The notes under the pieces are model-generated. The model did not search any database. It was given only the letters and a program-made list of their open reading frames with translations, and had not been told where the DNA came from. Source: Massilia aquatica (GTDB taxonomy: Bacteria; Pseudomonadota; Gammaproteobacteria; Burkholderiales; Burkholderiaceae_D). Taken from it: a stretch of DNA of 64,000 nt. The stretch lies in assembly GCF_011682045.1 (NCBI RefSeq), contig NZ_VVIW01000004.1, positions 310,001-374,000 of the forward strand, written 5' to 3'. Position numbers and translations under genes: made by a program. Shown one piece after another: positions 7,808 through 56,766 of the stretch (position 1 is its first letter; each line of letters starts with the position of its first letter).

Positions 7808-7816
7808 TGGTGTTGC

Positions 7817-40928: not shown

Positions 40929-43121
40929 TTAAAACCGCGCGTGGTAGGTCAGGTCGGCGCTACGCGGCGCGCCCAGGATGACCTGGCTGTTCACGTTGGC
41001 GCCGCTCCAGCCGGCATACAGCTTGTCGCCCAGGTTACGCACGCGCAGGGTCATCTCGCCCGAGCCCAGGCGCCAGCTCGCGTACACGTCGGCCGTGGTA
41101 AAGGCGTTCATGCGGATCGTGTTGGCGTTGTTGGTGTAGCGCTCACCCGTGTAATTGAGCGCGGCGCCGACCTTGAGCGGCAGCTGGTCCATCTTGTAGT
41201 CGGCCCACAGGTTGCCGGTTTTTTTGGCCACGTTGGGCGGCAGCTTCCCTGCGTGCGACACGTTGCCCGCTTCGAGCAGCTGGTCGAAGCGGGCGTCCAG
41301 CACGGCCACGTTGCCGTTAATGCTGGCCTGGCGCATGGGCCGCCACGCCGCCGCCAGCTCCACGCCACGCGAGGATTGCTTGCCGCTGTTGACGGTCAGG
41401 GTGGGCACCGCCGCGTCGCGCGAGAGGATGTTATCGAGGCCGATCTTGTAGAACGCCAGCGTGTAGTCGACGCTGCCGCCGAACAGTGCCTGCTTGATGC
41501 CGATTTCGCTCTGCGTGCCTTTCGACAGTTCAAAGGCGGCATTCGCGGCGGACAGCAGCAGCAGGTTGCCCGAACCGACCGGCGCCGAGGCATTGGTGTT
41601 CTGCGCGTAGAGCGAGAGGTCCTTGTCGAGCGCATACACGGTGCCGATGCGCAGCGAGCGCGGATCGTAGGTTTGCGCATAGGCGGTGGCCACGCCGGTG
41701 TTCAGGTCCGCCGTGCGGCGCCCGAGCTTGACGCGGTCCTGGCGCAGGCCGGCGACGATGGTCCACTTGTCGGTCACCCAGAGCGCATCTTCAAGGTACA
41801 GCGAGGCGGTCGGAATGCTGGTCGAAAAATTGGAACGGTTGCCGGCGCCGGTGTACAGCGCGCTGTTGGCGCTGAGCGCGTCGAAGGTGCCGTAGGCGGG
41901 ATCGAACAGGTCGACCGTCAAGGCGGCATTGGTGGCGGCGCCTCCATTCGAAAAACTGCGCTGGGTGGCGAAGCGCGTCTTGCTGTATTGCGCGCCAGCG
42001 GCAAAGCGGTGCTTCATGCCGGCCAGCTTGCCGGTGTACGACAGGTCGAGCCGGTTGCCGAACACCTGGTGGTCGTGCGTGACGCCGACCAGGTCGCGCA
42101 CCACCTGGCGCGGCGCGCTCACGGTGTAGCTTTCGGCATTGCGCCAGCTGCGGTCGGCCGTGTAGTACGACAGTTCGTTGCGCAAGGTCCAGTCGGGGGC
42201 GAGCTTCCAGGTCAGCCTGGCGCGCGCCCAGGCGCTCTCGGACTCCATCACCGCGTCGTCGACGTTGTAGTTCTTGAAGGCGAGGCGGCGGTCGATCACG
42301 CGGCCGCCGGTGTCGCTGACCGCGCCAACCGGGTCCGTTGCCAGCGCACGCGGGACCAGGGGCGAACCCTGGTACGAGTTGACGTTATCGGACAACAGAT
42401 CGAGGCTCAGGTCGAGCGTGATGTCGCGCGTGAGCGCACTGGTGGTGGCCAGGGTCAGGTTGTCGTAGCGCTGCTTGTTGCGGTCGATGAAGCCGTCGCT
42501 CTGCTGGTGGCTGTAGTCGATGCGCAGCGCATGCGCGTCGCCGACAGGGCGGTTGATGCCCGCCCCGAAGCGCGCCGTATTGAAGCGCCCGTAGGAAAGC
42601 ATCGCTTCGCTGGACGCCTGCGCGCGGTCCGGCCGCTTGGTCACGAAATTGATCGCGCCGCCGATGGCGCCGTCGCCCGACATGAGCGAGGCCGGCCCCT
42701 TGAGGACTTCGATGCGCTCGAAGTTCCATGTGTCCTGGGTACGCGCGCTCATGGTCGGCACGGCGATGCGGCTGCCGTCGTACAGATAGCTGACAAAACC
42801 CGCACTGAAGCCGCGCGACGAGGTCTGCGACGGCGAAGTCGCATTGCCGCCCTGAGTGACGCCGACCGCGCCGCGCACCGCTTCATCGAGACTGCGCGCG
42901 CCGCGTACCTCGATCAGGGCGCGGTCGATCACCTCGACCGAGGCCGGCGTCTCGCGCAGGGTCAGGTCGAGGCGGCTGCCCAGGGCCGTGCTGTCGCTGC
43001 CGGCTTGCACACGGGCGCTGTCGATGACGACGACCTGCATCGGCGCCGGCGCATCGTCGGCATACGCGGCCAGGGGGCTGTACAGGCAAAGCAGTGCGCA
43101 AGGCAGCTTTCTGAGTTTCAC
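40929..43121 (-). CDS. TonB-dependent siderophore-type receptor
   Basis: 730 aa starting at a GTG with AGGAG 7 nt upstream. Signal peptide MKLRKLPCALLCLYSPLAAYA. Plug domain features include ETPASVEVIDRALI, SRGF (here SSRGFSAGFVSYLYDG), RIEVLKGPASLMSGDGAIGG and NFVTKRP, typical of the FhuA/FoxA-like siderophore group. The barrel ends in YHARF with a terminal aromatic. It would import a ferric or other metal chelate with TonB. A Fur-like box lies immediately upstream, overlapping the region where the promoter should be. It diverges from an ABC exporter operon, and a metallophore-like operon begins 4.2 kb away, so its ligand may be that product. Confidence 0.88.
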   Translation of the reverse strand: MKLRKLPCALLCLYSPLAAYADDAPAPMQVVVIDSARVQAGSDSTALGSRLDLTLRETPASVEVIDRALIEVRGARSLDEAVRGAVGVTQGGNATSPSQTSSRGFSAGFVSYLYDGSRIAVPTMSARTQDTWNFERIEVLKGPASLMSGDGAIGGAINFVTKRPDRAQASSEAMLSYGRFNTARFGAGINRPVGDAHALRIDYSHQQSDGFIDRNKQRYDNLTLATTSALTRDITLDLSLDLLSDNVNSYQGSPLVPRALATDPVGAVSDTGGRVIDRRLAFKNYNVDDAVMESESAWARARLTWKLAPDWTLRNELSYYTADRSWRNAESYTVSAPRQVVRDLVGVTHDHQVFGNRLDLSYTGKLAGMKHRFAAGAQYSKTRFATQRSFSNGGAATNAALTVDLFDPAYGTFDALSANSALYTGAGNRSNFSTSIPTASLYLEDALWVTDKWTIVAGLRQDRVKLGRRTADLNTGVATAYAQTYDPRSLRIGTVYALDKDLSLYAQNTNASAPVGSGNLLLLSAANAAFELSKGTQSEIGIKQALFGGSVDYTLAFYKIGLDNILSRDAAVPTLTVNSGKQSSRGVELAAAWRPMRQASINGNVAVLDARFDQLLEAGNVSHAGKLPPNVAKKTGNLWADYKMDQLPLKVGAALNYTGERYTNNANTIRMNAFTTADVYASWRLGSGEMTLRVRNLGDKLYAGWSGANVNSQVILGAPRSADLTYHARF

Positions 43122-43136
43122 GGCAAGACTCCTATT

Positions 43137-43156
43137 GATAATAAGTTCTCATTATC
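43137..43156. promoter_or_regulatory. Fur-like operator between the siderophore receptor and the ABC operon
   Basis: GATAATAAGTTCTCATTATC consists of perfect inverted hexamers GATAAT/ATTATC with 8 bp between, one more than the 19-bp Fur consensus. It lies 15 bp upstream of the receptor GTG and 44 bp upstream of the ATPase ATG, so one site could repress both directions when iron is sufficient. Confidence 0.65.
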
Positions 43157-43200
43157 GTATAGTCCCCGACACTTTCGCAATTCTTTTGTTAAGACATCCC

Positions 43201-43920
43201 ATGGACATGATGAAACCAGCCCTCCAGATGGACAAGGTCACGCGCCGTTTCGGCGAGCGCGTGGCCCTGAACGGCCTCTCGCTCACTTTGCAGGCGGGCG
43301 AGGTGTACGCGCTGCTCGCGCCCAATGGCGCCGGCAAGACCACCACCCTCAATCTGATCCTCGGCTTCCTGCAGCCGGACGGCGGCAGCATCCATGTGTG
43401 CGGCGAGCCGGTGGCCGGCGACGCGGCCCGCACGCGCAGCGCGATCGCCTATCTGCCCGAACAGGTGGCGATCTATCCGGAACTGAGCGGTCTGGAAAAC
43501 CTGCGCTACTTTTCGCTGCTGGCGTCAAAAGAGCTCGACGACGCCACCCTGCGCCGCCTGCTGCTGGAAGCCGGCCTGCGCGCCGACGCCCACGACCGCC
43601 ACGCGCGCAACTACTCGAAAGGCATGCGCCAGAAGGTCGGGATTGCGATCGCGATGGCGCGCGAGGCCAGGCTGTTGCTGCTCGACGAGCCGACTTCGGG
43701 GCTTGATCCGCTGGCCGCGTCCGAACTGTCGGGCCTGTTGCGCGCCGCCTCGCAGCGCGGCGTCGCCATCCTCATGGCCACGCATGACCTGTACCGCATC
43801 AAGGAAGTCGCTACCCGCGTCGGCGTGCTGCACGCGGGCCGCATCGAACGCGAAATCGATCCGCAGACGACCGAACACGCGACGCTCGAACAGGTCTACA
43901 TTGCGGAGCTGGCACGATGA
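43201..43920 (+). CDS. ABC transporter ATPase (DUF3526-type exporter)
   Basis: 239 aa. Walker A is APNGAGKTT (about 40-48, with Ala where Gly is common), the signature is NYSKGMRQKVGI and Walker B is RLLLLDEPTSGLDP. It should power export with two DUF3526 permeases encoded downstream. ATG at 43201; ATG 43207 is also possible. The 3' end overlaps the first permease start as ATGA. Divergent from a siderophore receptor across a Fur-like box, so expression is probably iron-linked. Confidence 0.9.
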   Translation: MDMMKPALQMDKVTRRFGERVALNGLSLTLQAGEVYALLAPNGAGKTTTLNLILGFLQPDGGSIHVCGEPVAGDAARTRSAIAYLPEQVAIYPELSGLENLRYFSLLASKELDDATLRRLLLEAGLRADAHDRHARNYSKGMRQKVGIAIAMAREARLLLLDEPTSGLDPLAASELSGLLRAASQRGVAILMATHDLYRIKEVATRVGVLHAGRIEREIDPQTTEHATLEQVYIAELAR

Positions 43921-45302
43921 GCACAACGCTGCATGCGGCGCTGCTGCGCGCCGAAGCGCAGCGCCTGTGGCGCGAACCGCGCCTGCGCTGGGTTGCCATG
44001 CTGGCGCCATTGCTGCTGCTGACCGTGTTTTTCGCGTCGATGAACAGCGCCGCACGCATGGCCGACGAACGCACGCGCTTTGCCGCATCCGAGCGCGCGC
44101 GCTGGGTCGCGCAGGGCCAGAAAGACCCGCACAGCGCCGCCCACTTCGGCGTGTGGGCGGTCAAGCCGTCCTCGCCATTGCAGGTGCTCGCGCCCGGGAT
44201 CGAGCCGTTTGTCGGCCTGTCGGTCTGGCTGGAAGCGCACAAGCGCAACGAAATGATTTTCCGTCCCAACCAGGATGCCGATCCGATCATGCGCAGCGCC
44301 GCCTCGGTGGCGCAGGTGCTCGAAATACTGGGGCCGATGTTCGCGATCCTGCTCGGTTTTGCCGGCTTTGCCCAGGACCGCCAGCGCGGCACCCTGCGCA
44401 TGGCCTTCGGTAACGGCGCCACGCCGGGGCGGCTGCTGCTGTCGCGCTTTGCGGTGATGGTGGGCCTGCTGGTGTGCATGGCGCTCGCGCCCGTGGTGGC
44501 GATGGGGTCGTACGCCCTGCAGGTCCTGCCCGACGCCGGCTGGGGCGGCGCCGGCCGGCTGGCCCTCTGGAGCCTGCTGAACTTCCTATACCTGCTGGTG
44601 TTTTTGCTGATCGCACTGGCCGTCTCGCTCAAGGCGCCCAGTGCGCGCGCGGCGCTGACCATCATGCTGGTGCTCTGGCTGGTGCTGTGCGTGGTGCTGC
44701 CGCGCGCCGCCGGCAACGCGGCGCAGGTGCTGGCACCAGTGCCCTCGTACCAGGAGCTGCGCAGCCACCTTGAAACCGAGTCGCCCGCGTACGAAGGGGC
44801 CGACAAATGGGAAGCGCGGCGCCAGGCCCTGATCAAGGCCGGCGCCACCAATGTGCGCGCCGCGCAGCTGGACCAGTCGGAGCGCGAATCGCACGCGGTG
44901 TTCGACCGCGTGCTGGGGCGCTTCTACGATTCGGTCGAACAGCAGGACCGTACCTTCGGCTGGCTGGGCGCGTTCACGCCGACCGTGGCGCTGCAAGCGT
45001 CCGGTGCGGCCGTCGCCGGCACCGACTTTTATCAGCACAGGCATTTTATCGAAGCGGCCGAATCCTACCGGCGCGCGATGGTCAACCGCCTCAATGGAGA
45101 TTTGATGGGACACACGGAACACGAAGACGCCAGCAAGTCGACCGGCAAGCAGTTCTGGGAATCGGTGCCGGCGTTTGCCTACCAGGCGCCACCGCTCGGC
45201 AGCGTACTGGCGAATGCGGCGGCGCCCCTGCTGCTGCTGTCCGGATGGTGCTTCGTCGCCGGCCTTGCCGCCTGGCGCGCAGCGAAAGGAGTGCAGCCAT
45301 GA
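43917..45302 (+). CDS. ABC-2-like permease, DUF3526 family (first)
   Basis: 461 aa. One N-terminal helix (about 24-40), a large extracytoplasmic domain, then several helices (about 140-265) and a C-terminal one (about 430-455). The architecture of a loop between TM1 and TM2 is that of DUF3526 permeases, which pair with ABC ATPases and are often found near TonB receptors. Overlaps the ATPase gene by 4 bp and the second permease gene by 4 bp. The exported or processed substrate is unknown. Confidence 0.8.
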   Translation: MSTTLHAALLRAEAQRLWREPRLRWVAMLAPLLLLTVFFASMNSAARMADERTRFAASERARWVAQGQKDPHSAAHFGVWAVKPSSPLQVLAPGIEPFVGLSVWLEAHKRNEMIFRPNQDADPIMRSAASVAQVLEILGPMFAILLGFAGFAQDRQRGTLRMAFGNGATPGRLLLSRFAVMVGLLVCMALAPVVAMGSYALQVLPDAGWGGAGRLALWSLLNFLYLLVFLLIALAVSLKAPSARAALTIMLVLWLVLCVVLPRAAGNAAQVLAPVPSYQELRSHLETESPAYEGADKWEARRQALIKAGATNVRAAQLDQSERESHAVFDRVLGRFYDSVEQQDRTFGWLGAFTPTVALQASGAAVAGTDFYQHRHFIEAAESYRRAMVNRLNGDLMGHTEHEDASKSTGKQFWESVPAFAYQAPPLGSVLANAAAPLLLLSGWCFVAGLAAWRAAKGVQP

Positions 45303-46762
45303 CGCGCGCACTGTTCGGTTTTGAGCTGGCGATGCTGCTCAAGGCACGCTTTACATGGATCATCGGTGCGCTGCTGTTCGCGGCACTTAGCTGGGGGGCG
45401 GTCAACGGCCAGGCCAACGCGGACGCGCAGCAGGCCACCATCGACCGGGTCAAGGTACACGCGGCGGCCAAGGTGGCGAAGCAGCAGGCCGACGTGGCGC
45501 GCTACAGCCGCCCGTTTGATGCGGTGCTGCCGTACTGGCAAGACCCGTCCGACGCCGCCGGCTACATGCGCTATGGGCTGGCCGCGTATGCGGTCAAGCC
45601 GCCGTCGCCGCTGGCGGGCATCGCCATCGGCCAGTCACGGCTGCTGCCGTTCTATATCAAGACCGATCTGGATTACGTGGCGCCGCCGGCGGCCGCGTTC
45701 GACTTCATCAACCCGCGCATCCTGAGCCTGGGCGACTTCGACCTGTCGTTCGTGCTGGTGTATGTGCTGCCGCTGGCCCTGATCGCCATTGGCGCTTCGC
45801 GCCTGGCGGCTGAACGCGACTCCGGCGCGCTGCGGCTGATGGCGGCGCAACTGCCATCGTTCCGCCAGCTGGTCATGCTCAAGTTCAGCGTGGCCGCCGT
45901 CGTGTGCGTGCCGTTCACGCTGGGGGCGACCGTGTTGGCCCTGCTGGTGGCGGGCACGCCCTGCTGGAGCATGCAGACCATGGACACCATGCTGTTGCTG
46001 GGCGCGGCGCTGGCCGGCTTCACCCTGTTCTGGGTGGCGCTGACCGCGCTGGTGGCCAACCGCATCGGGGTGGTGGGCAGTTACCTGCGGCTGGTGTCGG
46101 TGTGGATCGGATTCACGTTCTTCGTGCCGGCCGCCGGCGCGCTGCTGATCGACATGGCGTATCCGGCGCAGTCGCCGCTGCTGTATCTGGACGACCTGCG
46201 CCGCGCGAACGACTTCAAGCCGGGCGATCGCGATGCGCTGTTCGTTGCGCTGGCGCGCGCAGAACCGGCCTATGCGTCGGCGGCGGAGCGGGTTGGCAAG
46301 GTGTCGTATGCGACCAAGCAGATCGCGGTGCAGCAGGCGGTCGAGCGGCAGGTGGCCGAACGCGCCGCGGCCGCGGCGCGCCAGAACGAACTCGCTTCCG
46401 GCAAGGCGGCCACGCTGCGCTGGCTCTCGCCGGCGATGGTGTTCGACACCCTGCTGCAACAGGCGGCGGGAACCGGCGTGGAACGGCACAAGCGCTTCAT
46501 CAAGCGCACCGGCGCGTACACGGACGAACTGCGGGCGTTCTTCTGGCCGCGCGCGATGGCCGAAGCGGCCAATCCGGCCAATGCATGCCAGGGCTGTGCG
46601 GGACGAATGAACTTTACCGACCACGACAAAATTCCGCGCTTCGAGGCGGACCGGCCGCTGGATGGCGTAGCGGGCGGTATCGGCGGCGCGGTGGGGTATC
46701 TGTGGCTGCTGGCAGGGGCGGTTGTGCTGATGCTGTGGAGCGGGAGGACGTTCAGGGTGTAA
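45299..46762 (+). CDS. ABC-2-like permease, DUF3526 family (second)
   Basis: 487 aa from the ATG at 45299, which overlaps the previous stop. TM1 (about 14-32), a long periplasmic loop with conserved Pro-rich motifs (AVKPPSPLAGIAIGQS, matching the first permease's AVKPSSPLQVLAPGIE), then a helical bundle (about 160-300) and a last helix near 465. The shared loop motif shows that the two permeases are paralogues forming a heterodimer. A CQGC-like pair lies near residue 435. Its stop is 20 bp from the convergent regulator gene. Confidence 0.8.
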   Translation: MTRALFGFELAMLLKARFTWIIGALLFAALSWGAVNGQANADAQQATIDRVKVHAAAKVAKQQADVARYSRPFDAVLPYWQDPSDAAGYMRYGLAAYAVKPPSPLAGIAIGQSRLLPFYIKTDLDYVAPPAAAFDFINPRILSLGDFDLSFVLVYVLPLALIAIGASRLAAERDSGALRLMAAQLPSFRQLVMLKFSVAAVVCVPFTLGATVLALLVAGTPCWSMQTMDTMLLLGAALAGFTLFWVALTALVANRIGVVGSYLRLVSVWIGFTFFVPAAGALLIDMAYPAQSPLLYLDDLRRANDFKPGDRDALFVALARAEPAYASAAERVGKVSYATKQIAVQQAVERQVAERAAAAARQNELASGKAATLRWLSPAMVFDTLLQQAAGTGVERHKRFIKRTGAYTDELRAFFWPRAMAEAANPANACQGCAGRMNFTDHDKIPRFEADRPLDGVAGGIGGAVGYLWLLAGAVVLMLWSGRTFRV

Positions 46763-46782
46763 GCGCCCCCGCAAAAAACGGG

Positions 46783-47217
46783 CTAGTGCGTCTTCGGCGC
46801 ACGGGCCCGGCGCTTCGGCACGGGCGCAGCCTTGGCGCGCTCCGCCGAGCAATCGGCGCACACGCCGTACAGGGTCAGTTCGTGGCGGTCGATCACGAAA
46901 CCGGCCGGCGCCAGGCTGTCCATCGAACCAGGGCAGCCTTCCACATCGAACACGCGGTCGCACGGCACGCAATGAAAGTGGTGGTGATGGTGGTGCGCCG
47001 CGTGGCTCATTTCGTAGCGCGCGTTTTCGCCCGGCAGGCTCACCGTCTGGATGGTGCCGTCGTCGAGCAGCAGCTTGAGGTTGCGGTAAATGGTGGCGAT
47101 ACCGATTTCGGACACGGTCTCGCGTACCCCGGCCAGAATTTCCTGGGGCGTGAGCGGGCGGGCCGCCGCATCGATGACAGTACGAATCGCTGTCCGCTGG
47201 CGTGTAGAACGTTCCAT
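46783..47217 (-). CDS. Fur-family metalloregulator (Fur/Zur type)
   Basis: 144 aa from the ATG at 47217, which matches the usual family N-terminus; a start at 47244 would add 9 residues. Winged helix with SEIGIATIYRNLKLLLDDG. A run of six His (75-80) precedes C83-V-P-C86 and a second C120-A-D-C123, the structural zinc site. Family proteins repress transcription when loaded with Fe2+, Zn2+ or Mn2+; which metal this one senses cannot be decided. It is divergent from the kinase-first biosynthetic operon, with a palindrome midway, so it is the best candidate regulator of that operon and of itself. Confidence 0.88.
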   Translation of the reverse strand: MERSTRQRTAIRTVIDAAARPLTPQEILAGVRETVSEIGIATIYRNLKLLLDDGTIQTVSLPGENARYEMSHAAHHHHHHFHCVPCDRVFDVEGCPGSMDSLAPAGFVIDRHELTLYGVCADCSAERAKAAPVPKRRARAPKTH

Positions 47218-47277
47218 GGCGAGGCTATTGAAGCAAAAACCCATTATCCCATAAAGCCGAACAAATGCTTGCCTCGC

Positions 47278-47299
47278 TAATGATAATGCATTATCGTTA
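47278..47299. promoter_or_regulatory. Near-perfect 22-bp palindrome, probable operator of the Fur-family regulator
   Basis: The core is GATAATGCATTATC; the full 22 bp (TAATGATAATG then CATTATCGTTA) has one mismatched pair. It lies 60 bp from the regulator start and 58 bp from the kinase start, well placed to control both divergent promoters. The hexamers are the same as in the Fur-like box at 43137, but with 2 bp between them rather than 8. Confidence 0.7.
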
Positions 47300-47357
47300 A
47301 CGTCAAGCAGTCACCGCACTGTCTCCCGCTCTCTCTCGACATTCACTACGAAAGCTC

Positions 47358-48305
47358 TTGAATCCCGTGCCTTCCATCGACTTCGCAGACAGCAGATACA
47401 CACCGGCGGCATGCCCCAACTTCAGCTGGCATGCCGGCACGGAGGAGACGATCAGCAGCGGGATCTGCCACGGCACCCTGGGCGAGCTGATTCAAGGCCC
47501 ATACATCGAGAACGGCGCAGCGCAGATCAGCCTGATTTCGCTGCCGGTCAAGAAGTACAGCTGCATGCACTTCACCCATGGCGAGCGGGCCGATAACGAC
47601 AACGCACTGGCCACCAAGACCAAATGCCAGCAAGCCATCGCCCATTACCTGGCGCGGCACGGCAAAGAGCTGCCGCCCGGGACCTGGAGCCACGATTCGG
47701 AACTGCTGGAAGGGAAAGGCATGGCCAGTTCGACCGCCGACATCGTGGCCACCATCCGCTGCCTCGATGCGATTTTCGGCCTTGCGTCGTGCGGCGAGTC
47801 GATATCGGCCACCCTGCGCGCGATCGAGCGCTCCGACAGCGTGTTCCTGGAGACCTACGCGCTGTACCTGAGCGGGCGCCAGCAAGTAGTGCAGTGCTTC
47901 GGCAGCGCCCCGACTTTTCACGCCTGCTATATCGACGAAGGCAACCGCATCGATACCGAGAAGACGGGCACGCGCCTGCTCGCGCTGTACCAGGAACGGC
48001 TCACGCCCTACATGGCCAATCTCGATAACGCCGTCGACGCCTTTGTGCGCAACGACCTCGGTGCGATTGCCGCCTGCGCCACGGTCAGCGCAGTGCTCGG
48101 GCAGGACGCCATCCCCAAGCGTAACCTCGGCGTACTGCTCAAGAACCAGGCGCGCTACGGGGCCGACGGCATTTTTGTTGCGCACACGGGCAGCCTGGCG
48201 GGCTACCTGTTCATTCACAAACCGGGGCCCACGCAAATGGGCGCACTCTCGTCATTCTTTCGCGGCCTGGGATACCAAGGCCGCTTCGTCCAGACAGGAT
48301 TCTGA
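47358..48305 (+). CDS. GHMP-family kinase, PduX-like (L-threonine/L-serine kinase candidate)
   Basis: 315 aa. The GHMP ATP-binding motif EGKGMASSTAD (118-128) and the N-terminal GTLGELIQG (39-47) match PduX-type L-threonine kinases, which make O-phospho-L-threonine for cobalamin side-chain synthesis. No cobalamin genes are nearby. It is followed after 2 bp by an SbnA-like PLP enzyme, whose relatives use O-phospho-L-serine, so I infer it phosphorylates serine or threonine to feed that step. The start is a TTG (47358) with a weak GAAAG; a GTG at 47367 is an alternative. First gene of a six-gene operon. Confidence 0.78.
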   Translation: MNPVPSIDFADSRYTPAACPNFSWHAGTEETISSGICHGTLGELIQGPYIENGAAQISLISLPVKKYSCMHFTHGERADNDNALATKTKCQQAIAHYLARHGKELPPGTWSHDSELLEGKGMASSTADIVATIRCLDAIFGLASCGESISATLRAIERSDSVFLETYALYLSGRQQVVQCFGSAPTFHACYIDEGNRIDTEKTGTRLLALYQERLTPYMANLDNAVDAFVRNDLGAIAACATVSAVLGQDAIPKRNLGVLLKNQARYGADGIFVAHTGSLAGYLFIHKPGPTQMGALSSFFRGLGYQGRFVQTGF

Positions 48306-48307
48306 CC

Positions 48308-49315
48308 ATGTTCGATCACATTGCGGACGCCATCAAGGCGCCGGACTTCGTACGCCTCGGCCCCAACCTGTACGTCGCCCGCTTCGAGACGATGAAGGTG
48401 TATTCGACCCTGGTGGCGGTGGAGCGCCTGCTGGCGGCGGGCGTGGTCAGGCGCGGCGACACGCTGCTCGACAGCTCGAGCGGCATCTATGCCTATGCCC
48501 TTGCGCTGGCGTGCCACAAGTTCGACATGCAGTGCCACATCATCGCCTCCAAAACGGTGGACAAGACGCTGATGGTGCAGCTCCAGCTGCTCGGCGCGAT
48601 CGTGGAGCAGGTGCCGCCGTCGGCCACCCTGAAAATGGACCAGAGCCTGCGCGTGGCGCGCATCGGCGAGATCCGCGCGGCCAATCCGCACGTGCACTGG
48701 ATGCAGCAGTACCACGACGACATTCACTACGCCGGCTACGAGCCGATCGCCAGCGAGATCGAACGCCTGCTCGGCACCGACGGCCTGACCATTGTCGGCG
48801 GCGTGGGCTCGGGCTGCTCCACCGGCGGCCTGGCGCGCGCCCTGCGCTGCAGCGACGACGCGGTGGAGCTGGTCGGCGTGCAGCCCTTCGGCAGCGTCAC
48901 CTTCGGCTGCGCGCACATCGAAGACCCGGGCATCATCATCGCCGGCATCGGCACCGGCATCCCGTTTCGCAACGTGCAGCACGCGCTGTACGACCAGATT
49001 CACTGGATCGGCTTCGACTACGGCCTGGCGGGCGCGGTCGCCCTGCTGCGCCGGCACGCCATTTTTGCCGGCCTGTCGAGCGGCTGCTGCTACCTGGCGG
49101 CCGCGCGCGAAGCGCAGCGGCGGCCGGAGCGCAACGTGCTGTTCATCGCGCCCGATACCGGCCACCGCTATGTGGACGCGGTCTTCGCGCAGCACGAGAG
49201 CGCGCTGGAACTGCATGACCTGGCGCCCACCCATGTCGACGCGCACGCAGACCTTGTGCTGCCCTGGTCGGTCATGGCCTGGAACCGCCGCGTAGCCACC
49301 GAATCAATCAACTGA
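48308..49315 (+). CDS. PLP-dependent beta-substitution enzyme, SbnA/cysteine-synthase-like
   Basis: 335 aa of the fold-type II PLP family. K30 in FETMKVYS is the likely Schiff-base lysine; SSSGIY (56-61) matches the substrate loop; the glycine-rich phosphate site is GVGSGCSTGG (165-174). SbnA condenses O-phospho-L-serine with glutamate to N-(2-amino-2-carboxyethyl)-glutamate, a 2,3-diaminopropionate precursor. Plain cysteine synthase is less likely because the gene is locked between a kinase (2 bp upstream) and a ligase gene. Nucleophile and exact product are inference. Confidence 0.75.
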   Translation: MFDHIADAIKAPDFVRLGPNLYVARFETMKVYSTLVAVERLLAAGVVRRGDTLLDSSSGIYAYALALACHKFDMQCHIIASKTVDKTLMVQLQLLGAIVEQVPPSATLKMDQSLRVARIGEIRAANPHVHWMQQYHDDIHYAGYEPIASEIERLLGTDGLTIVGGVGSGCSTGGLARALRCSDDAVELVGVQPFGSVTFGCAHIEDPGIIIAGIGTGIPFRNVQHALYDQIHWIGFDYGLAGAVALLRRHAIFAGLSSGCCYLAAAREAQRRPERNVLFIAPDTGHRYVDAVFAQHESALELHDLAPTHVDAHADLVLPWSVMAWNRRVATESIN

Positions 49316-49332
49316 AAAAGGAGTCTTCAACC

Positions 49333-51408
49333 ATGGCACACCTGTTAATGATCGAAAGCTGGGTCGGCGGCACCGGCCGCATTTTCCCCGCCACCATCAC
49401 CGGCGCGGGACACACCTACACGTTCGTCACGCGCAACCGGGGCCACTACCTGGATGGCGCCGATGCGCCGATTCATCCGCTGCTGGCGCACGCCGCCAAT
49501 GTGCTCACCACCGAAACGAACGACATGCCGGCGCTGATCGCCTTTTTGCGCGCCCAGCACCGCGTGCTCAGGTTCGATGGCGTGGTGACCATCTGCGACT
49601 ACTACATCGACACCGTGGCGCAGGTGGCGCAGGCGCTGGAGCTGCCGCAGGCCTTCTGCAGCAACGTGGCGATGGTGCGCCGCAAGCACCTGGTGCGCGA
49701 GGCTTTGGCAAAAGCCGGCCTGCCCAATCCGGCGTTTGCCGCGGTGACGTCGTGGGACGCGGCGCGCGCGGCGGCCTGCAAGATCGGCTACCCGCTGATC
49801 CTCAAGCCGTCCGACCTGGCGTCGAGCGCTTTTGTGAAGCTGGTCAAGGATGAAGACGAACTGCATGCGGCTTTCAGCGCGCTGGAAGCATTCCCGGTCA
49901 ACTTCCGCGAGCAGGCGCGCGAGCCGCTCTGGCTGCTGGAAGAGTACATGAAAGGCGAAGAAGTCAGCGTGGAGGCGTGCACCTTCAGCGGAAAAACGAC
50001 CATCATCGGCGTCACTGACAAGAGCCTGACCGGCTTCCCCTACTTTATCGAGGATGGCCACATGTTCCCGGCGCGGCTGGACGGCGACGTCACCGACGCC
50101 GTGTGCGAACTGGTGACGGCGGCGCTTGCGGCGGTCGGCTTCGACCATGGCATCAGCCACACCGAAGTGAAGATCACGCGCAAGGGGCCGCGCATCGTCG
50201 AAATCAATCCGCGCCCGGGCGGCAATTACATTGCGGAGCTGATCGAGCGGGTCACCGGCATTGAATTCCTGTCGGCCCAGATCGACCTGGCGCTCGGGCT
50301 CCAGCCCGACCTGACGCGCAAGGACACCGGCGTGCAGAGCGCCGCCATCAGGTTCCTGGTGCCGCAGGGCGCGGGACGGGTCAAGGCCATGACCGGCATC
50401 GACAGCGTGGCCGGCGCGCCGCACGTGGCGCGTGCGCTCATCACGAATGCGGCCGGCAAGGAGCTGGCAGCGCCGATCGACAACGCCTGCTACCTCGGCC
50501 ACGTGGTCGCGGTCGATCCGGATGGCCTGGAGGCGCGCAAATATGCCGACAAGGCCCTCGCGCGCATCGAGATCAGCTTCGCCGGCGAAGGCAAGGAGCC
50601 GGCCGCACCATGGAACGTGGCGGGCCTGATCGAAGACGTGCAGGCCGGCCTGTATGGACCGGCGCCGGCATCGATGCACGTGGTGGGCGCGTCGTGGATT
50701 TCGCAGAGCACGCGCTTTCCGGGTACCCAGCAAACCTACCGCAACTACTATCTGGTGCTGCGCGTGGGCGCGGCGTTCGGCGCCTGCTGCATCGAACGCG
50801 ATGCGCTCGACCCGACCATTGCGCCGGCGCTGGCCGGGTCGAGCGTGGCCGACCTGCTGGTCGACCCGCGCCTGCCGGTGCGCATCGCCGCGCTGGACGC
50901 GTACCTGAACGCGGTGCGTCCGGCGCGCGAATCGGCGCTGGCGCAAGCCATGCCGCTACCCGCCGGCGCGCCGCCGGTGCGGGCGGTAGCGCGCGACAAT
51001 GCGATTGCCGCGCTGGTGTCGATCAAGCCGGGCCAGCGCGTGGGCCTGATCGGCGTGGTCAATCCGCTGGTGGACGCCATTACGCGCAGCGGCGGCATCT
51101 GCCTGCCGTGCGACTTCAACATGGAGCGCACCCAGAGCGGGCTGGAAGTGGCGCGCGACATGCTGCCGATCCTGGAAACGGCCGACATGATCATCGCCAC
51201 CGGCATGACCCTGTCCAACGGCTCGTTCGACCAGATCCTGATGGCGGCGCGCCGGCGCGGCATTGCGCTGATCGTGTACGCGCAGACCGGCAGCGGCATC
51301 ATTCCGCGCTTCCTTGGCGACGGCGTGGCCGCGGTCTGCGCCGAACCGTTCCCGTTCTCGCAGTTCAGCGCCGATCCGACGTCCGTCTACCTGTACCGCG
51401 CATCATGA
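49333..51408 (+). CDS. ATP-grasp ligase fused to a DUF4213/DUF364 heavy-metal-chelation-like module
   Basis: 691 aa. Residues ~1-420 are a carboxylate-amine ATP-grasp ligase: YPLILKPSDLASS (153-165), LLEEYMKGEEVSVEA (201-215) and the metal/ATP motif EINPRPGGNY (290-299). Residues ~430-530 resemble DUF4213 (enolase-N-like, ending RIAALDAYLNAV) and ~555-690 DUF364 (GLIGVVNPLV, ADMIIATGMTLSNGSFDQIL), a Rossmann-like module annotated as putative heavy-metal chelation. It likely joins the product of the PLP enzyme to another amino or carboxylic acid, and the second half may bind metal or act later in the pathway. GGAG-type site before 49333; overlaps the MFS start by 4 bp. Confidence 0.75.
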   Translation: MAHLLMIESWVGGTGRIFPATITGAGHTYTFVTRNRGHYLDGADAPIHPLLAHAANVLTTETNDMPALIAFLRAQHRVLRFDGVVTICDYYIDTVAQVAQALELPQAFCSNVAMVRRKHLVREALAKAGLPNPAFAAVTSWDAARAAACKIGYPLILKPSDLASSAFVKLVKDEDELHAAFSALEAFPVNFREQAREPLWLLEEYMKGEEVSVEACTFSGKTTIIGVTDKSLTGFPYFIEDGHMFPARLDGDVTDAVCELVTAALAAVGFDHGISHTEVKITRKGPRIVEINPRPGGNYIAELIERVTGIEFLSAQIDLALGLQPDLTRKDTGVQSAAIRFLVPQGAGRVKAMTGIDSVAGAPHVARALITNAAGKELAAPIDNACYLGHVVAVDPDGLEARKYADKALARIEISFAGEGKEPAAPWNVAGLIEDVQAGLYGPAPASMHVVGASWISQSTRFPGTQQTYRNYYLVLRVGAAFGACCIERDALDPTIAPALAGSSVADLLVDPRLPVRIAALDAYLNAVRPARESALAQAMPLPAGAPPVRAVARDNAIAALVSIKPGQRVGLIGVVNPLVDAITRSGGICLPCDFNMERTQSGLEVARDMLPILETADMIIATGMTLSNGSFDQILMAARRRGIALIVYAQTGSGIIPRFLGDGVAAVCAEPFPFSQFSADPTSVYLYRAS

Positions 51409-52595
51409 CCGTTCTGTCCGACCAGGTCCGCAAGCGCGGGCTCAATGCGCTGCTGGTGTACACCTTCCTGATGGTGGTCGGCTTTGCCATGCTGATGCCG
51501 CTGGTGAGCGTGCACTTCGTGAGCAATGCCGGGATGGCGGCGGCCGTGGTCGGCGGCGCGCTGGCGCTGCGCCAGATAACGCAGCAGGGCCTCGCGCTGG
51601 TGGGCGGCATGCTGGCCGACCGCTTCGGCGTACGGCCCATGATCTGCCTCGGCGTGCTGCTGCGCGCCGCCGGCTTTGCCAGCCTGGCCTTCGCCGACGA
51701 CGCCGCGACGCTGTGCGTGGCGATGGTGGTATCGGCGCTGGGCGGCGCGCTGTTCGAAGCGCCCTACCAGGCGGCGATTGCGGCCCTGACGACGGAACAA
51801 ACGCGGCCGCGCTACTACGCGCTCAGTAACTGGGTCAGCGGCATTGCCAGCACCGTCGGCCCGCTGGTCGGCGTAGCGCTGCTGCATGTGGACTTCCAGA
51901 TGGTGTGCCTGGCCGCAGCGGCGTGCTTTGTGCTCAACTGCGGGATCGCCCTGTGGATGCTGCCGCCGCTGGCACGCCCGGAGGCGCCGCGCTTGACGAC
52001 GCACCGGCTCGGTCTTGTCACGCGCGACCGTCCCTTTTTGCTGTTCACCGGCCTGATGATGGGCTACTGGTTCGTGGCGGTGCAGATCAATATCAGCTTC
52101 CCGCTGCTGGCCGAACGCCTGAGCGGGAACCAGGAGAGCGTGGGCATCATGTTCGCGCTCAGCGCCGCGCTGACGGTGCTGCTGCAATACCACCTGCTGC
52201 GGGTGGCGGAGAAATGGCTCTCGACCCAGCAGATCCTGGTGCTGGGCGTGACCATCATCGCGCTCGGCGCCGGCGCCATCGCCCTGGCGCATACCTTTGC
52301 GGCCTTCCTGGTGTGCGTGGCGGCGTTTTCGATCGGCGCGATCCTGGTGCGGCCGACGATGCAGAACCTGATCGCCAGCATGGCCAATCCGCAGGCCCTG
52401 GGGACTTTTCTCGGTTTCAGCTCGCTCAGCCTGGCCCTGGGCGGCGCGATCGGCAACGTGACCGGCGGCTGGCTGGTCGAATTCTCCGGTGCGCAGCAAT
52501 GGCCGCAACTGCCGTGGATGATCTTTTGCGCGGTCGGCCTCCTCTCCGCATTCGGCCTGTTTCGCCTGGCGCCGCGCGCAAGGGAGGCCGCATGA
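51405..52595 (+). CDS. MFS exporter of the metallophore-like operon
   Basis: 396 aa, about 12 helices. The helix 2-3 loop has GGMLADRFGVRPMIC, the MFS signature, and overall it is MdtH-like. Start and stop overlap neighbours by 4 bp (ATGA) on both sides, so it is translationally coupled between the ligase and the RND adaptor. Probable role: moving the operon's small-molecule product across the inner membrane. Substrate specificity is inferred from context only. Confidence 0.82.
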   Translation: MTVLSDQVRKRGLNALLVYTFLMVVGFAMLMPLVSVHFVSNAGMAAAVVGGALALRQITQQGLALVGGMLADRFGVRPMICLGVLLRAAGFASLAFADDAATLCVAMVVSALGGALFEAPYQAAIAALTTEQTRPRYYALSNWVSGIASTVGPLVGVALLHVDFQMVCLAAAACFVLNCGIALWMLPPLARPEAPRLTTHRLGLVTRDRPFLLFTGLMMGYWFVAVQINISFPLLAERLSGNQESVGIMFALSAALTVLLQYHLLRVAEKWLSTQQILVLGVTIIALGAGAIALAHTFAAFLVCVAAFSIGAILVRPTMQNLIASMANPQALGTFLGFSSLSLALGGAIGNVTGGWLVEFSGAQQWPQLPWMIFCAVGLLSAFGLFRLAPRAREAA

Positions 52596-53677
52596 AAAAG
52601 GAATACGCGATTGCGATGCTGTGCGGCGCGGTGACGGTGGCCTGTGCGGCGCGCTTCTGGAGCACGCCCGCGCGCGCCCAGGCGACGCCGCCCTCCCCGC
52701 CCGACATCGTTGTCAACACTGTCACGCCGGTGGTGCGCGACGTGCCGGTGGTGCTGCGCGCAACCGGCACCGTGACGCCAACGAGCGTGGTGGACCTGCA
52801 TGTGCAGACCACCAGCACGGTCAGGCAAGTGCATATCCGCGAGGGCCAGTTCGTCAAGGAAGGCCAGTTGCTGTTTTCACTGGACGACCGCGCCGGACGC
52901 GCCAACGTGGAACGCGCGCAGGCGCAGGTGATGCGCGACGAGGCGGCGCTGGCCGGCCTTGAGCAGCGCTACCGGCGCAGCGTGGAACTGCTGGACAAGC
53001 AGTTCATCGCCGTGACCGCCGTGGACACGCTGCGCAGCGAGGTCGATGCGGCGCGCGCCCTGCTGCGGGCGGACCAGGCGGCGCTGCGCGCCGTGCAGGT
53101 GGACGCGGGTTTTAACGCGATCCGCGCGCCAATGGCGGGCCGGGTCGGGGCGGTGAACGTGTATCCGGGCAGCCTGGTGCAGGTCAGCACCCTGCTGGTC
53201 ACGGTGACGCGGCTCGATCCGATTGCGGTGGCGTTCACCCTGCCCGAATCGAACGTGGGCGAGCTGCTGGCGGCGCACCAGAAGGGCGCGGTGGCGGTCG
53301 AGGCCAACCAGCGCAGCGGAACGCTCAGCTTCATCGACAACAGCGTCGACCCGGTGGCCGGCGCGATCCGGGTCAAGGCGAGTTTCGAGAACGGCGACGC
53401 CGCCATGTGGCCGGGCCAGTACGTGGACGCGCGCGTCACCGTGCGCACCCTGCGCGGCGCGGTCGTGATTCCCCAGGCGGCGATCATCGCCAGCCCGGCC
53501 GGCGCCTTTGTGTACGTGGTGGCGGCCGACCGCACGGTGAAACAGGTGCCGGTCAAGCGCCTGCATGCGTTCGGAGCGAGTGCGGCGGTGAGCGGCCTGG
53601 CGGGTAATGAGGCCATCGTCACCGAGGGCAAGCAGAATCTCAAACCCGGCGCGCGCATCAAGGCGGGCCAGGGATGA
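52592..53677 (+). CDS. RND efflux adaptor (membrane fusion protein)
   Basis: 361 aa. N-terminal signal/anchor (MKKEYAIAMLCGAVTVAC, ending near ARA), then barrel-sandwich halves (VDLHVQTTSTVRQVHIREGQ and NAIRAPMAGRVGAVNVYPG) flanking a coiled-coil hairpin (about 105-160), then beta-barrel and membrane-proximal domains. It links the RND pump to an outer-membrane channel. ATGA overlaps with the genes on both sides. No lipobox is obvious. No outer-membrane factor gene follows. Confidence 0.88.
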   Translation: MKKEYAIAMLCGAVTVACAARFWSTPARAQATPPSPPDIVVNTVTPVVRDVPVVLRATGTVTPTSVVDLHVQTTSTVRQVHIREGQFVKEGQLLFSLDDRAGRANVERAQAQVMRDEAALAGLEQRYRRSVELLDKQFIAVTAVDTLRSEVDAARALLRADQAALRAVQVDAGFNAIRAPMAGRVGAVNVYPGSLVQVSTLLVTVTRLDPIAVAFTLPESNVGELLAAHQKGAVAVEANQRSGTLSFIDNSVDPVAGAIRVKASFENGDAAMWPGQYVDARVTVRTLRGAVVIPQAAIIASPAGAFVYVVAADRTVKQVPVKRLHAFGASAAVSGLAGNEAIVTEGKQNLKPGARIKAGQG

Positions 53678-56600
53678 ACCTCTCCGCATTGTGCATCGAG
53701 CGCCCGGTGATGGTGGTGCTGCTGTCGGCCAGCCTGGTGATCGCCGGGCTACTGGCGTACCGCTTCATTCCCGTGTCCGCGCTCCCGAGCTACAACACGC
53801 CGGTGATCAACGTGCAGGCCAACCTGCCTGGGGCCAGCCCCGAAACGATGGCGTCGTCGGTGGCGCTGCCGCTGGAGAAGGAGTTCTCGGCGGTGGCCGG
53901 CGTGAGCCTGATGACCTCCACCAGCACCCTGGGCGCCACCTCGCTGACCCTGGAATTCGGGCCGGCCATCGACATCAACGCCGCGGCGGTCGACGTGCAG
54001 GCGGCGCTGCTGCGGGCGCAGCGCGCACTGCCGCGCGAGATGACCGAGCTGCCGTCCTACCGCAAGGTCAATCCGGCCGAGGCGGCGGTGCTGTCGATGG
54101 AGATGACGTCGCCGTCGATGGACCTGTCGGAGCTGAACGACTACGCCGAAAACCTGATCGCGCCAGCCTTGTCCGGCCTGCCGGGCGTGGCGCAGATGAC
54201 GGTGCTGGGCCAGAAGCGTTTTGCCGTGCGCGTGCGCGCCGATCCGGGCCGCATGAAGGCGCGCGACTTGTCGATGGACGAACTGTCGGCCGCGCTACAG
54301 GCGGCCAACGCCAATTCGCCGCTCGGTGTGCTGGACGGACCGGCGCAGACCATGGTCATCCAGGGTAACGCGCAACTGCTCAAGGCCGCCGATTACGCAG
54401 GCCTGATCGTGGCCATGCGCGACGGCCAGCCGGTGCGACTGGAAGACGTGGCCACGGTGGAAGACAGCTACCAGTCGGTGCGCTCGGCCACCAGCTTCAA
54501 CGGCGAGCGCTCGATCGTGCTGCTGCTGTTCCGCCAGAGCGATGCGAATACCCTGGCGGTAGTGGACGCGGCCAGGCAGACGCTCGAGCGCATGCGCAGG
54601 CAGTTGCCGCAGTCGGTCGCGGTCAACATCATCAACGACCGTTCGGTATCGGTGCGCGAAGCCATGATTGACGTGAACATCACGCTCGGGCTGACCATCG
54701 CGCTGGTGATCCTGGTGATCTTTTTGTTCCTGCGGCGCGCCGCCGCGACCATGATTCCGGCACTGACGATTCCCGTCTCCCTGCTGGGGACACTGCTGTT
54801 GATGCACTGGCTCGGCTACAGCCTGAATAACTTTTCGCTGCTGGGGATCACGCTGGCGGTGGGGCTGGTGGTGGACGATGCGATCGTGGTGCTTGAAAAT
54901 ATCGTGCGCCATATCGAGGCCGGCAAAAGCCCGCTTGATGCTGCCATGACCGGCTCGCGCGAGGTGAGCCTGACCATCGTGTCGATTTCGATCTCCCTGG
55001 CGGCGGTGTTCATGCCGATTTTCTTCATGCCGGGCGTGATGGGATTGCTGTTCCACGAATTCGCGGTGGTGGTGTCGCTGGCGGTGCTGGTGTCGGCGCT
55101 GGTGTCGCTCACCCTGGTGCCGATGCTCGCGAGCCGCCTGCTGCACGACGATGAACAGCACGTGGCCGGCAAGGCCAGCCTGTTCGGGCGCCTGGAGCGC
55201 GCCTATGCGGGCTCGCTCGAGCGGGCGCTCGCGCGGCGCGGCGCGATGCTGCTGGCGGCGCTGGCCATCCTGGCGCTGACGGTGGGGCTGTACGTCGCCA
55301 TTCCCAAGGGCCTGCTGCCGGAGGAAGACCTGGGCCAGATCCGCGTCTCGACCGAGGCCTCGGAGGAGACTTCGTCGTCCGCCATGCTGGCACTGCACAT
55401 GAAGGTGGCGGCGGCGGTCAAGGCTGATCCGAATGTGCGCGATGTGTCGTCGTCGGTCAGCGGCGACAACAACGGCAGCTTGTTCCTGCTGCTCAAACCA
55501 CGCGCGGAGCGCGCGCCGATGGCGGAGGTGGTCAAGGGCCTGAAACGGGCCACCAGCGGGATCGCCGGCGTGGGCGTGTATTTCAAGCCGGTGCAGAATT
55601 TCCAGGTCGGTGGACGGCCCAGCAAGAGCCGCTATCAGTACACCTTGCAAAGCGTGGGGGCCGGCGGCCCGGATGAATGGGCCACCGGTTTGCTGGAGCG
55701 GATGCGGGACGATGCGCGCTTTGCCGACGTGACCAGCGATGCGCGCAACCGCGGCTTGCAGGCGCGCTTGAAAATAGACCGCGACAAGGCGGCGGTGCTC
55801 GGCGTGCGCATGCTCGATGTGCGCAGCGCGCTGTACTCGGCGTTTGGCGAACGCCAGGTGGCGACCATTTACGGCACGGCCGCCACCTATCCGGTGATCC
55901 TGGAATCGGCGCAGGACGAGCGCCAGTTCGAGGATGCGCTGGGCCGTGTGTCGGTGCGCAGCAAGGCCGGTGAGCTGGTGAACGTGTCGAGTTTTGCGAC
56001 GGTGGAGCGCGCGCTCGGGCCCTTGTCTGTCAACCACCAGGGGCAACTGCAGGCGATCACGCTGTCGTTCAACCTGAGGCCGGGCGTGGCCCTGGGCGAG
56101 GCGACCGGCGCTATCGACGCGATGGCGCGCGAGATGAAGCTGCCGGCGTCGATCGTGGCGCGCTATGGCGGCGACGCGGCCGTGTTCCAGGAGGCGCAAT
56201 CGAGCCAGGTGTGGCTGATCGTGGCCGCGCTGGGGGTCATCTACATCCTGCTCGGGGTGCTGTACGAAAGCTATATTCATCCACTGACTATCCTGGCGGG
56301 GCTGCCGTCGGCGGCGGTGGGTGCGCTGCTGACCTTATGGCTGTTCGGGATGGAGCTGACCATGATCGCGGTGGTCGGGATTTTGCTGCTGATCGGGATC
56401 GTGAAGAAGAACGCGATCATGATCATCGACTTCGCCCTGCATTTGCAGCGCGAGGAAGGCATGGCGCCGGAGCTGGCGGTGCGCCAGGCCTGCCTGCTGC
56501 GCTTTCGGCCGATCATGATGACGACCATCGCCGCGCTGATGGGCGCCCTGCCGATTGCGCTGGGCTGGGGCGCGGGCGCCGAACTGCGCCAGCCGCTGGG

Positions 56601-56766
56601 GCTTGCGGTCGTTGGAGGACTGGTGTTTTCGCAGCTGATTACGCTGTACATGACGCCGGCGATGTATCTGGCGCTGGACAGGTATGCGCGCAAGAACAAG
56701 CCTGCGCGGGGTGGGACGGTGAGGGCCGGGCGGCGGCAATCAGCCGTCGGCGAGGCGCTTCTTTAG
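53674..56766 (+). CDS. RND multidrug-type (HAE1) efflux pump
   Basis: 1,030 aa, the normal length, with two repeats of six helices and large periplasmic loops. TM4 contains GLVVDDAIVV, the Asp-Asp proton-relay pair of the hydrophobe/amphiphile (HAE1) group rather than the heavy-metal HME group, so an organic molecule is the likelier cargo than a bare ion. Last gene of the kinase-first operon, coupled to its adaptor by ATGA. It would send the product to the outside with an outer-membrane channel encoded elsewhere. Its last 27 bp overlap the convergent zinc-ribbon gene. Confidence 0.9.
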   Translation: MNLSALCIERPVMVVLLSASLVIAGLLAYRFIPVSALPSYNTPVINVQANLPGASPETMASSVALPLEKEFSAVAGVSLMTSTSTLGATSLTLEFGPAIDINAAAVDVQAALLRAQRALPREMTELPSYRKVNPAEAAVLSMEMTSPSMDLSELNDYAENLIAPALSGLPGVAQMTVLGQKRFAVRVRADPGRMKARDLSMDELSAALQAANANSPLGVLDGPAQTMVIQGNAQLLKAADYAGLIVAMRDGQPVRLEDVATVEDSYQSVRSATSFNGERSIVLLLFRQSDANTLAVVDAARQTLERMRRQLPQSVAVNIINDRSVSVREAMIDVNITLGLTIALVILVIFLFLRRAAATMIPALTIPVSLLGTLLLMHWLGYSLNNFSLLGITLAVGLVVDDAIVVLENIVRHIEAGKSPLDAAMTGSREVSLTIVSISISLAAVFMPIFFMPGVMGLLFHEFAVVVSLAVLVSALVSLTLVPMLASRLLHDDEQHVAGKASLFGRLERAYAGSLERALARRGAMLLAALAILALTVGLYVAIPKGLLPEEDLGQIRVSTEASEETSSSAMLALHMKVAAAVKADPNVRDVSSSVSGDNNGSLFLLLKPRAERAPMAEVVKGLKRATSGIAGVGVYFKPVQNFQVGGRPSKSRYQYTLQSVGAGGPDEWATGLLERMRDDARFADVTSDARNRGLQARLKIDRDKAAVLGVRMLDVRSALYSAFGERQVATIYGTAATYPVILESAQDERQFEDALGRVSVRSKAGELVNVSSFATVERALGPLSVNHQGQLQAITLSFNLRPGVALGEATGAIDAMAREMKLPASIVARYGGDAAVFQEAQSSQVWLIVAALGVIYILLGVLYESYIHPLTILAGLPSAAVGALLTLWLFGMELTMIAVVGILLLIGIVKKNAIMIIDFALHLQREEGMAPELAVRQACLLRFRPIMMTTIAALMGALPIALGWGAGAELRQPLGLAVVGGLVFSQLITLYMTPAMYLALDRYARKNKPARGGTVRAGRRQSAVGEALL

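Follow-up and report, generated by a model that had tools for sequence, protein, structure and literature searches.

Gene content of the locus

The window analysed here is a 64,000-nucleotide stretch of the Massilia aquatica genome (contig NZ_VVIW01000004.1, positions 310,001 to 374,000, forward strand), which contains, at 40929–56766, a putative metal-chelator locus. The locus comprises a six-gene operon on the plus strand, a divergent regulator gene of the Fur family, an ABC-2/DUF3526 transporter and a TonB-dependent receptor. It is probably a zinc-chelator (zincophore) locus controlled by a Zur-type repressor, independent of non-ribosomal peptide synthetases (NRPSs) and with a new biosynthetic make-up; the particular chemistry proposed below is less certain. 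A preliminary description, made from the letters of the sequence, had placed the system at 47278–56766. The six genes are present there with the spacing that it gave; the receptor and ABC transporter genes (40929–46762) and a second inverted repeat (43137–43156) had been left outside, and the unit extends across the regulator to include them.

The open reading frames of the operon (47358–48305, 48308–49315, 49333–51408, 51405–52595, 52592–53677 and 53674–56766) are separated by gaps of 2 and 17 bp, followed by three 4-bp overlaps. The first encodes a GHMP-family small-molecule kinase (GHMP_kinases_N, 25.8 bits against a Pfam cut-off of 22.3). Its first codon is a TTG at 47358, with an alternative GTG start at 47367; the latter is likelier, giving a gene at 47367–48305, because the printed stretch of another Massilia locus (L021) has no in-frame start 5' of that GTG. 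An AlphaFold model (pLDDT 86) shows a complete GHMP kinase that matches both mevalonate kinase (Z 22.9) and homoserine kinase (Z 21.0) over its whole length, so the substrate is not readable from the fold. The enzyme had been called PduX-like; this label finds no support beyond the GHMP fold, no PduX model being among the NCBIfam matches and the structural matches being to general GHMP kinases.

The second gene (48308–49315) encodes a putative pyridoxal phosphate (PLP) enzyme (PALP, 104 bits in Pfam). It had been likened to SbnA, which takes O-phosphoserine. The SbnA model TIGR03945 is indeed its best NCBIfam match, at 120.1 bits far short of the cut-off of 349.95. A profile of five sequences of this enzyme aligns with the SbnA crystal structures at positions 28–295, and K30, invariant in all five, lies opposite the lysine of the SMKDR motif of SbnA, which we take to be the PLP lysine. 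The loop SSSGIYAY replaces STSGN of SbnA, so the donor may differ from that of SbnA. An economical reading is that the kinase would make a phospho-amino acid for the adjacent SbnA-like enzyme.

The third gene (49333–51408) encodes a fusion of an ATP-grasp amino-acid ligase (residues 1 to ~420) and a DUF364 domain (residues ~425–691). The ligase half is above the Pfam cut-offs for ATP-grasp_4 (80.6 against 27 bits) and LAL_C2 (65.8 against 29.4), resembles the L-amino acid ligase BL00235 in sequence, and has NCBIfam matches below cut-off to BacD and dapdiamide synthase. The other half had been described as DUF4213/DUF364-like. DUF4213 gave no Pfam match; DUF364 (PF04016) passed its curated cut-off (34.0 against 23 bits), and a model of this half matched the solved DUF364 structures end to end (3l5o, Z 18.8, 219 of 267 residues aligned; 3npg, Z 18.6), the next structure scoring Z 10.1. 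It has the enolase-N plus Rossmann fold of these two structures. In G077, another genome of the Burkholderiales, the ATP-grasp and DUF364 proteins are encoded by separate genes, whereas in Massilia they are fused.

The remaining three genes encode putative exporters: an MFS transporter (51405–52595; MFS_1 in Pfam, and MdtH-like in NCBIfam below cut-off), an RND periplasmic adaptor (52592–53677; TIGR01730, above cut-off) and an RND inner-membrane pump of the MdtB/MdtC type (53674–56766; ACR_tran, 944 bits). No NRPS-type domain was matched by Pfam among the genes scanned in 40929–56766.

The divergent Fur-family gene and the palindrome midway between it and the kinase gene, both reported previously, were located at 46783–47244 (minus strand; Pfam FUR) and 47278–47299, respectively. 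The regulator, a predicted Zur-type repressor, probably starts at 47217 (MERSTRQR). The palindrome, TAATGATAATGCATTATCGTTA, is symmetric at 20 of 22 positions and has the core GATAAT-N2-ATTATC. Beyond the regulator, an ABC transporter ATPase gene (43201–43917; ABC_tran) is followed by two ABC-2/DUF3526 permease genes (43917–45302 and 45299–46762, overlapping by 4 bp; ABC2_membrane_2 and DUF3526 in each), all on the plus strand. Divergent from these (43201–46762) is the gene for the TonB-dependent receptor (40929–43121, minus strand; Plug and TonB_dep_Rec), the proposed uptake receptor for the metal chelate, and an operator-like inverted repeat, GATAAT-N8-ATTATC, lies in the promoter region between them (43137–43156).

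Conservation and distribution of the gene set

The alignment of the SbnA-like enzyme was scanned against 84,980 species genomes (tblastn, E ≤ 1e-3), giving 456 relatives. The best 80 of these were examined: four from Massilia, 15 from other bacteria of Gram-negative type and 61 from actinobacteria. The 15 derive from Lysobacter, Tahibacter, Rhodanobacteraceae, Sphingomonas, an Acidobacteria-labelled bin and a record named 'Bacillus sp. 2B10'. The locus layout of this last record (the pair L037/L031) is nearly that of the Sphingomonas bin, and the assembly is probably mislabelled or contaminated. With the window, the locus of G077 (L017) and eight plasmid loci added, 90 loci were scored for the presence of genes within 12 kb.

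Among the 21 Gram-negative loci, the kinase gene was found in 21, and genes for DUF364, ATP-grasp, MFS and the TonB receptor in 20 each; 20 of the 21 have all of these together with the gene for the SbnA-like enzyme. The single exception, L041, is on a contig that stops 0.5 kb past the SbnA-like gene, and no TonB match was found in the 10 kb preceding that gene. The RND adaptor and pump were seen in five loci, all from Massilia, and the pump is therefore not part of the conserved core. The window's TonB receptor is 54% identical to that of G077, whose gene heads the operon there. A second receptor-like gene, TonB-like by eye, lies between the ABC-2 permease genes and the kinase gene in Lysobacter antibioticus HS124 (L036, about 7070–9009), unlike the window, which has no receptor-like gene at this position.

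In actinobacteria, 46 loci contain DUF364, and these encode the kinase in 38 cases, FecCD in 37, FecE in 42 and an ATP-grasp protein of the Massilia type in five. The lack of such an ATP-grasp match in 41 of the 46 loci suggests that the kinase, the SbnA-like enzyme and DUF364 may constitute a minimal pathway, unless an unrelated ligase substitutes. A sister group of 23 actinobacterial clusters (including L035, L038, L043 and L048) carries the SbnA-like enzyme and the kinase (23 of 23) without DUF364, together with a divergent ATP-grasp gene in 22 and FecCD in 16; these possibly make a different product under different control. Five of the plasmid loci (L009, L010 and L013–L015, from Streptomyces, Embleya and Rhodococcus) carry ATP-grasp, DUF364, SbnA/cysteine-synthase-like and MFS genes with no match to the kinase. 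A dipeptide epimerase, a methyltransferase and an ABC transporter are annotated in L009 and L010, Zur-like boxes are present in L009, L013 and L014, and a CobW homologue adjoins L015.

The synthesis genes thus mostly travel with TonB receptors in Gram-negative bacteria (20/21) or with siderophore-type ABC importers in actinobacteria (FecCD in 37/46), a pattern expected if the chelate is re-imported. Distribution of the system is patchy. It was detected in seven of 195 genomes of the family (E ≤ 1e-60) and in six of the 13 listed genomes of the genus, the window's own included. The fused protein had a match at 1e-40 in four of 250 sampled Burkholderiales, with both halves covered only in the window's genome and G077.

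Regulation and the nature of the metal

Lysobacter-type loci carry boxes that correspond to the Escherichia coli Zur motif, TRWNAYRWTATAWYRTNWCA, as quoted in PMC6103462 (papers are cited here by PMC accession, from extracts). In the 450 bp preceding the TonB-headed block, this motif was present in seven of the 15 loci exactly, in 10 with at most one mismatch, in 11 with at most two and in 13 with at most three; elsewhere in the same loci there were 0, 0, 0 and 1 sites, respectively. In ten genomes, the Lysobacter box as an exact 12-mer occurs at 11 sites, nine of which are this operon by coordinates; one genome has none. The two further sites are both in Lysobacter sp. ISL-50, one flanked by a TonB gene and a FecBCD-like set, the other at a MerC-family gene (L133, L119), and they outline additional regulon members.

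In the 46 actinobacterial DUF364-type loci, the consensus TGAAAATGATTTTCA was found with at most three mismatches within 900 bp upstream of the system block in 33, amounting to 35 sites upstream and six elsewhere, against an expectation of 0.32; three control words, one reversed and two scrambled, had no site upstream. TGANAANNNTTNTCA, the core of a published znuA-derived motif (PMC5472717), was found with at most two mismatches in 43 of the 46 (51 sites upstream, 45 elsewhere, 2.4 expected). In the 23 loci without DUF364, the two words were found in one and two loci, respectively (0.07 and 1.0 sites expected). Both choices were made with sites already in view: sites had been inspected before the looser consensus, TGAAAATGATTTTCA, was picked, and the Lysobacter boxes before the E. 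coli motif was sought in the literature. The strength of the motifs rests on the comparison of upstream regions with the rest of the locus and, in actinobacteria, on the reversed and scrambled controls. Two of the actinobacterial loci (L084 and L085) hold homologues of the ZnuB-like (ABC-3) permease. Operators of the Zur type, as judged by these motifs, are present on the operon in two unrelated lineages.

In Massilia, the regulator itself points in the same direction. It is only 27% identical to the genome's own Fur, and homologues (E ≤ 1e-22) are present in 22 of 300 Burkholderiales genomes, its own included, those in other genomes being 46–67% identical. MerC has a presumed link to zinc. 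At 23 other loci with a regulator homologue, the neighbours, chosen by eye and then confirmed by Pfam, include ABC-3 (znuB-like) permeases at three, ZIP and CobW proteins at two each, and MerC at two more. In addition, relatives of the window's TonB receptor adjoin zur and ZIP homologues at L150 (64% identity over 115 residues) and L147 (58% over 109), and its ABC ATPase is 47–49% identical over 181–192 residues to ATPases near zur homologues at L141–L144. The regulator is thus most likely of the Zur type rather than an iron-responsive Fur. No match to the ZnuA family was found in the Massilia genome, in a search that did not extend to ZIP importers; this would fit reliance on another zinc route.

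The two operator-like boxes of the window are distinct from the Zur motifs of the other lineages. The pattern GATAATN{0,9}ATTATC occurs at three places in the 7.47-Mb genome, two of which are within this system; the third (C33:110921) is beside a gene without an obvious zinc link. In four other Massilia genomes, seven of 16 such sites fall at this locus. Neither box is decisive alone, since the 7-bp perfect arm of the palindrome was reached in 34 of 1000 shuffles of its own intergenic region and the 6-bp arm of the repeat at 43137–43156 in 106 of 1000. Their positions and spacers are conserved: the 8-base spacer of the 43137–43156 box is kept at the same position in the four other Massilia genomes and in L170 and L171, and the core with the 2-base spacer in L137, L170, L171 and three Massilia genomes (G261–G263), the latter box being degenerate in Massilia L021. 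L170 and L171 are genomes outside those that defined the pattern. L170, from another genus of the same family, has the gene order of Massilia and exactly two boxes in the stretch fetched; these occupy the corresponding promoters, and their spacers keep the lengths of 8 and 2 bases but differ in sequence. An IS3-type transposase-like gene (by eye) lies between its ABC genes and regulator, and no RND match was found downstream in that stretch. L171, from the window's own genus, has the same boxes and order, with the RND genes. Three CobW genes of the Massilia genome were also inspected, one of which (L105) has a looser palindrome, ATAATCGCTCGATTAT, outside the strict pattern, tens of bases 5' of its start; the other two have none.

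Taken together, the operators of Lysobacter (13/15) and actinobacteria (33/46) and the neighbours of the regulator homologues (7/23, and MerC at two more) suggest that the metal is most likely zinc. Several observations weigh against this reading. At 14 of the 23 regulator-homologue loci the neighbours are other or unidentified, and none of the ABC-3, CobW and MerC families is exclusive to zinc. The E. coli Zur motif was found in none of six beta-proteobacterial loci at up to three mismatches and in one of six at four, so the assignment to zinc in Massilia rests on the relatives of the regulator. The Zur motif of Streptomyces coelicolor derived by chromatin immunoprecipitation is upstream in only 10 of the 46 actinobacterial loci with at most one mismatch, and exact in one. 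The group of 23 loci that shares the kinase and SbnA-like enzyme without DUF364 has Zur boxes in only one, and among the 46 DUF364 loci the kinase is missing in eight and FecCD in nine. Finally, common descent within each group means that its loci are not independent.

Some of this evidence could also be explained by an iron siderophore system under a Fur paralogue, with the zinc signals misread. In alignments with PDB structures, the regulator fits Zur and Fur about equally well, and the Massilia boxes, built of GATAAT/ATTATC arms as Fur boxes are, look closer to GATAAT-type Fur half-sites than to the Zur motif of E. coli or Streptomyces. A TonB receptor or FecBCD uptake genes would suit iron siderophores equally well, the neighbouring transporters in actinobacteria are annotated as iron ABC permeases, and SbnA serves the siderophore staphyloferrin B (PMC3179956). 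The regulatory sites themselves argue otherwise. IdeR-type iron boxes were found upstream of none of the 69 actinobacterial loci at up to four mismatches (0/46 with DUF364, 0/23 without), a good match in L080 being ~9 kb from the system genes. The Fur box was absent upstream of all 15 Lysobacter-type loci at up to five mismatches, and in the six beta-proteobacterial loci it was found once at five mismatches and not at four. The canonical Fur-box matches of the Massilia genome (up to three mismatches) lie at four places elsewhere, none within this system. One is associated with a heme-uptake locus in the window (29–3279), in which a TonB receptor gene is followed by a HemS/ChuX gene; this match (G000:C44:309651), with three mismatches, is ~350 bp left of the window edge and provides an internal contrast to the Zur-type boxes. 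Iron control was rejected as the leading idea because the Fur-box and IdeR-box scans upstream of the operons gave nothing, and an iron siderophore system is considered unlikely.

The product could instead be a broad metallophore, binding for example nickel, cobalt or copper together with zinc, under Zur control. Such a situation has been described for staphylopine, which is broad-spectrum in vitro (PMC8000910), and DUF364 has been linked by gene context to tungstate, molybdate, vanadium and iron (PMC2954201). The sequence gives no counter-argument, and regulation reflects need rather than ligand selectivity; this explanation is given a small likelihood. A small antibiotic or signalling amino-acid derivative, self-exported by the MFS and RND pumps and with an incidental metal link, is highly improbable: the pumps are of multidrug type, the ATP-grasp half has its weak BacD and dapdiamide synthase matches, and the group without DUF364 mostly lacks Zur boxes, but the DUF364-type operons are accompanied by TonB or FecBCD uptake genes and by Zur-type operators.

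Elsewhere in the window, at 10693–19476 (minus strand), is a gene for a 2927-residue protein with GH94 and glucoamylase-like domains, presumably of the cyclic beta-1,2-glucan synthase kind.

Proposed pathway and relation to known systems

Interpreted as a zincophore system, the locus looks like a complete kit to make, export and re-import a small zinc-scavenging molecule, common to Lysobacter and dozens of Streptomyces-type bacteria. The small NRPS-independent metal chelator, made, exported and metal-regulated, that the preliminary description proposed is made more plausible by the uptake genes and by the predicted operators in two lineages. When zinc is scarce, the Zur-type repressor would leave both operators, and with them the divergent promoters, open. 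The kinase would phosphorylate the hydroxyl group of serine or threonine, and in the SbnA-like PLP enzyme the phosphate would be displaced by the amino group of a second amino acid, a beta-replacement forming a C–N bond that would yield an aminopolycarboxylate backbone. The ligand may then be completed by the ATP-grasp and DUF364 halves, one by adding an amide-bonded amino acid and the other by a condensation or tailoring step. The ligand would leave the cell through the MFS transporter, in Massilia helped by the RND pump, bind zinc outside and return through the TonB receptor, the ABC-2/DUF3526 transporter working at the inner membrane in either direction. The gene set and its conservation, the metal-chelate uptake genes that accompany it and the Zur-type operators or regulator are read from the sequence. 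We infer the reactions of the kinase, the SbnA-like enzyme and the ATP-grasp and DUF364 halves from family and fold; which way the transporters work and the choice of zinc as the metal bound are likewise parts of this proposal.

Components of the pathway resemble parts of known systems. The staphyloferrin B (sbn) operon similarly includes a cysteine-synthase-type PLP enzyme, SbnA, in a metallophore context, and the SMKDR-type lysine is kept in the Massilia enzyme. Unlike the sbn operon, the Massilia operon has an amino-acid-type kinase and DUF364 and a control that appears to be of the Zur rather than the iron type; no SbnB-type dehydrogenase partner was found by Pfam among the genes scanned in 40929–56766. 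The pathway to ethylenediamine disuccinate (EDDS) is NRPS-free and uses an SbnA-like enzyme; to our knowledge, its gene set contains neither a kinase nor DUF364. By description, the [S,S]-EDDS genes of Amycolatopsis japonicum are comparable in that they specify a Zur-controlled, zinc-repressed aminopolycarboxylate chelator (PMC6103462, PMC9252823).

The ligase half shares the ATP-grasp plus LAL_C2 architecture, and sequence similarity, with BL00235 and BacD, from which it differs in its fusion to DUF364 and its location in a metal-uptake operon. A small-molecule exporter is found beside opine zincophore genes. The opine zincophores staphylopine and pseudopaline (cntKLM and cntL-cntM) are Zur-regulated, with uptake through a TonB receptor in Pseudomonas aeruginosa (PMC6103462); neither a nicotianamine-synthase-like (CntL) nor an opine-dehydrogenase (CntM) gene was found by Pfam among the operon genes scanned. 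By these tests the locus, which is predicted to work like a zincophore system, follows neither the opine nor the SbnA/SbnB pathway. The DUF364 protein Dhaf4260 (3l5o) shares its two-domain fold (Z 18.8) and lies in a gene context of metal transport (PMC2954201), but is only 14% identical to the Massilia domain, which is fused to an ATP-grasp ligase within a set of three to four enzymes.

Few bacterial zincophores are known (PMC10563805). Those named in the literature, as far as the extracts extend, are staphylopine, pseudopaline, coelibactin, EDDS and yersiniabactin; Zur control is ascribed to coelibactin, EDDS and pseudopaline (PMC6103462). No published description of the present gene set was found among the matches listed, which covered titles and the starts of abstracts, subscription journals being mostly outside this coverage, and the extracts of PMC2954201 and PMC4046660 report no demonstrated DUF364 reaction.

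There is an even chance that these loci represent an unrecognised, phylum-crossing class of zincophores, the backbone of which is built by a kinase, an SbnA-like PLP enzyme and a DUF364 enzyme without an NRPS, an NRPS-independent siderophore synthetase or an opine dehydrogenase. Among the loci examined, the class would include Massilia, the Lysobacter type, an Acidobacteria-labelled genome and dozens of actinobacteria, and the 456 relatives of the SbnA-like enzyme suggest that there are more; it would probably have been missed by genome mining based on NRPSs or opine enzymes. If this is correct, a compact route of three to four enzymes with its own Zur operators in several phyla would be added to the known zincophore classes. 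DUF364, to which the ligase is fused in Massilia, would then be a dedicated metallophore-forming enzyme, and the family, for which a structure was published in 2010 with no demonstrated reaction, would gain a testable substrate and pathway.

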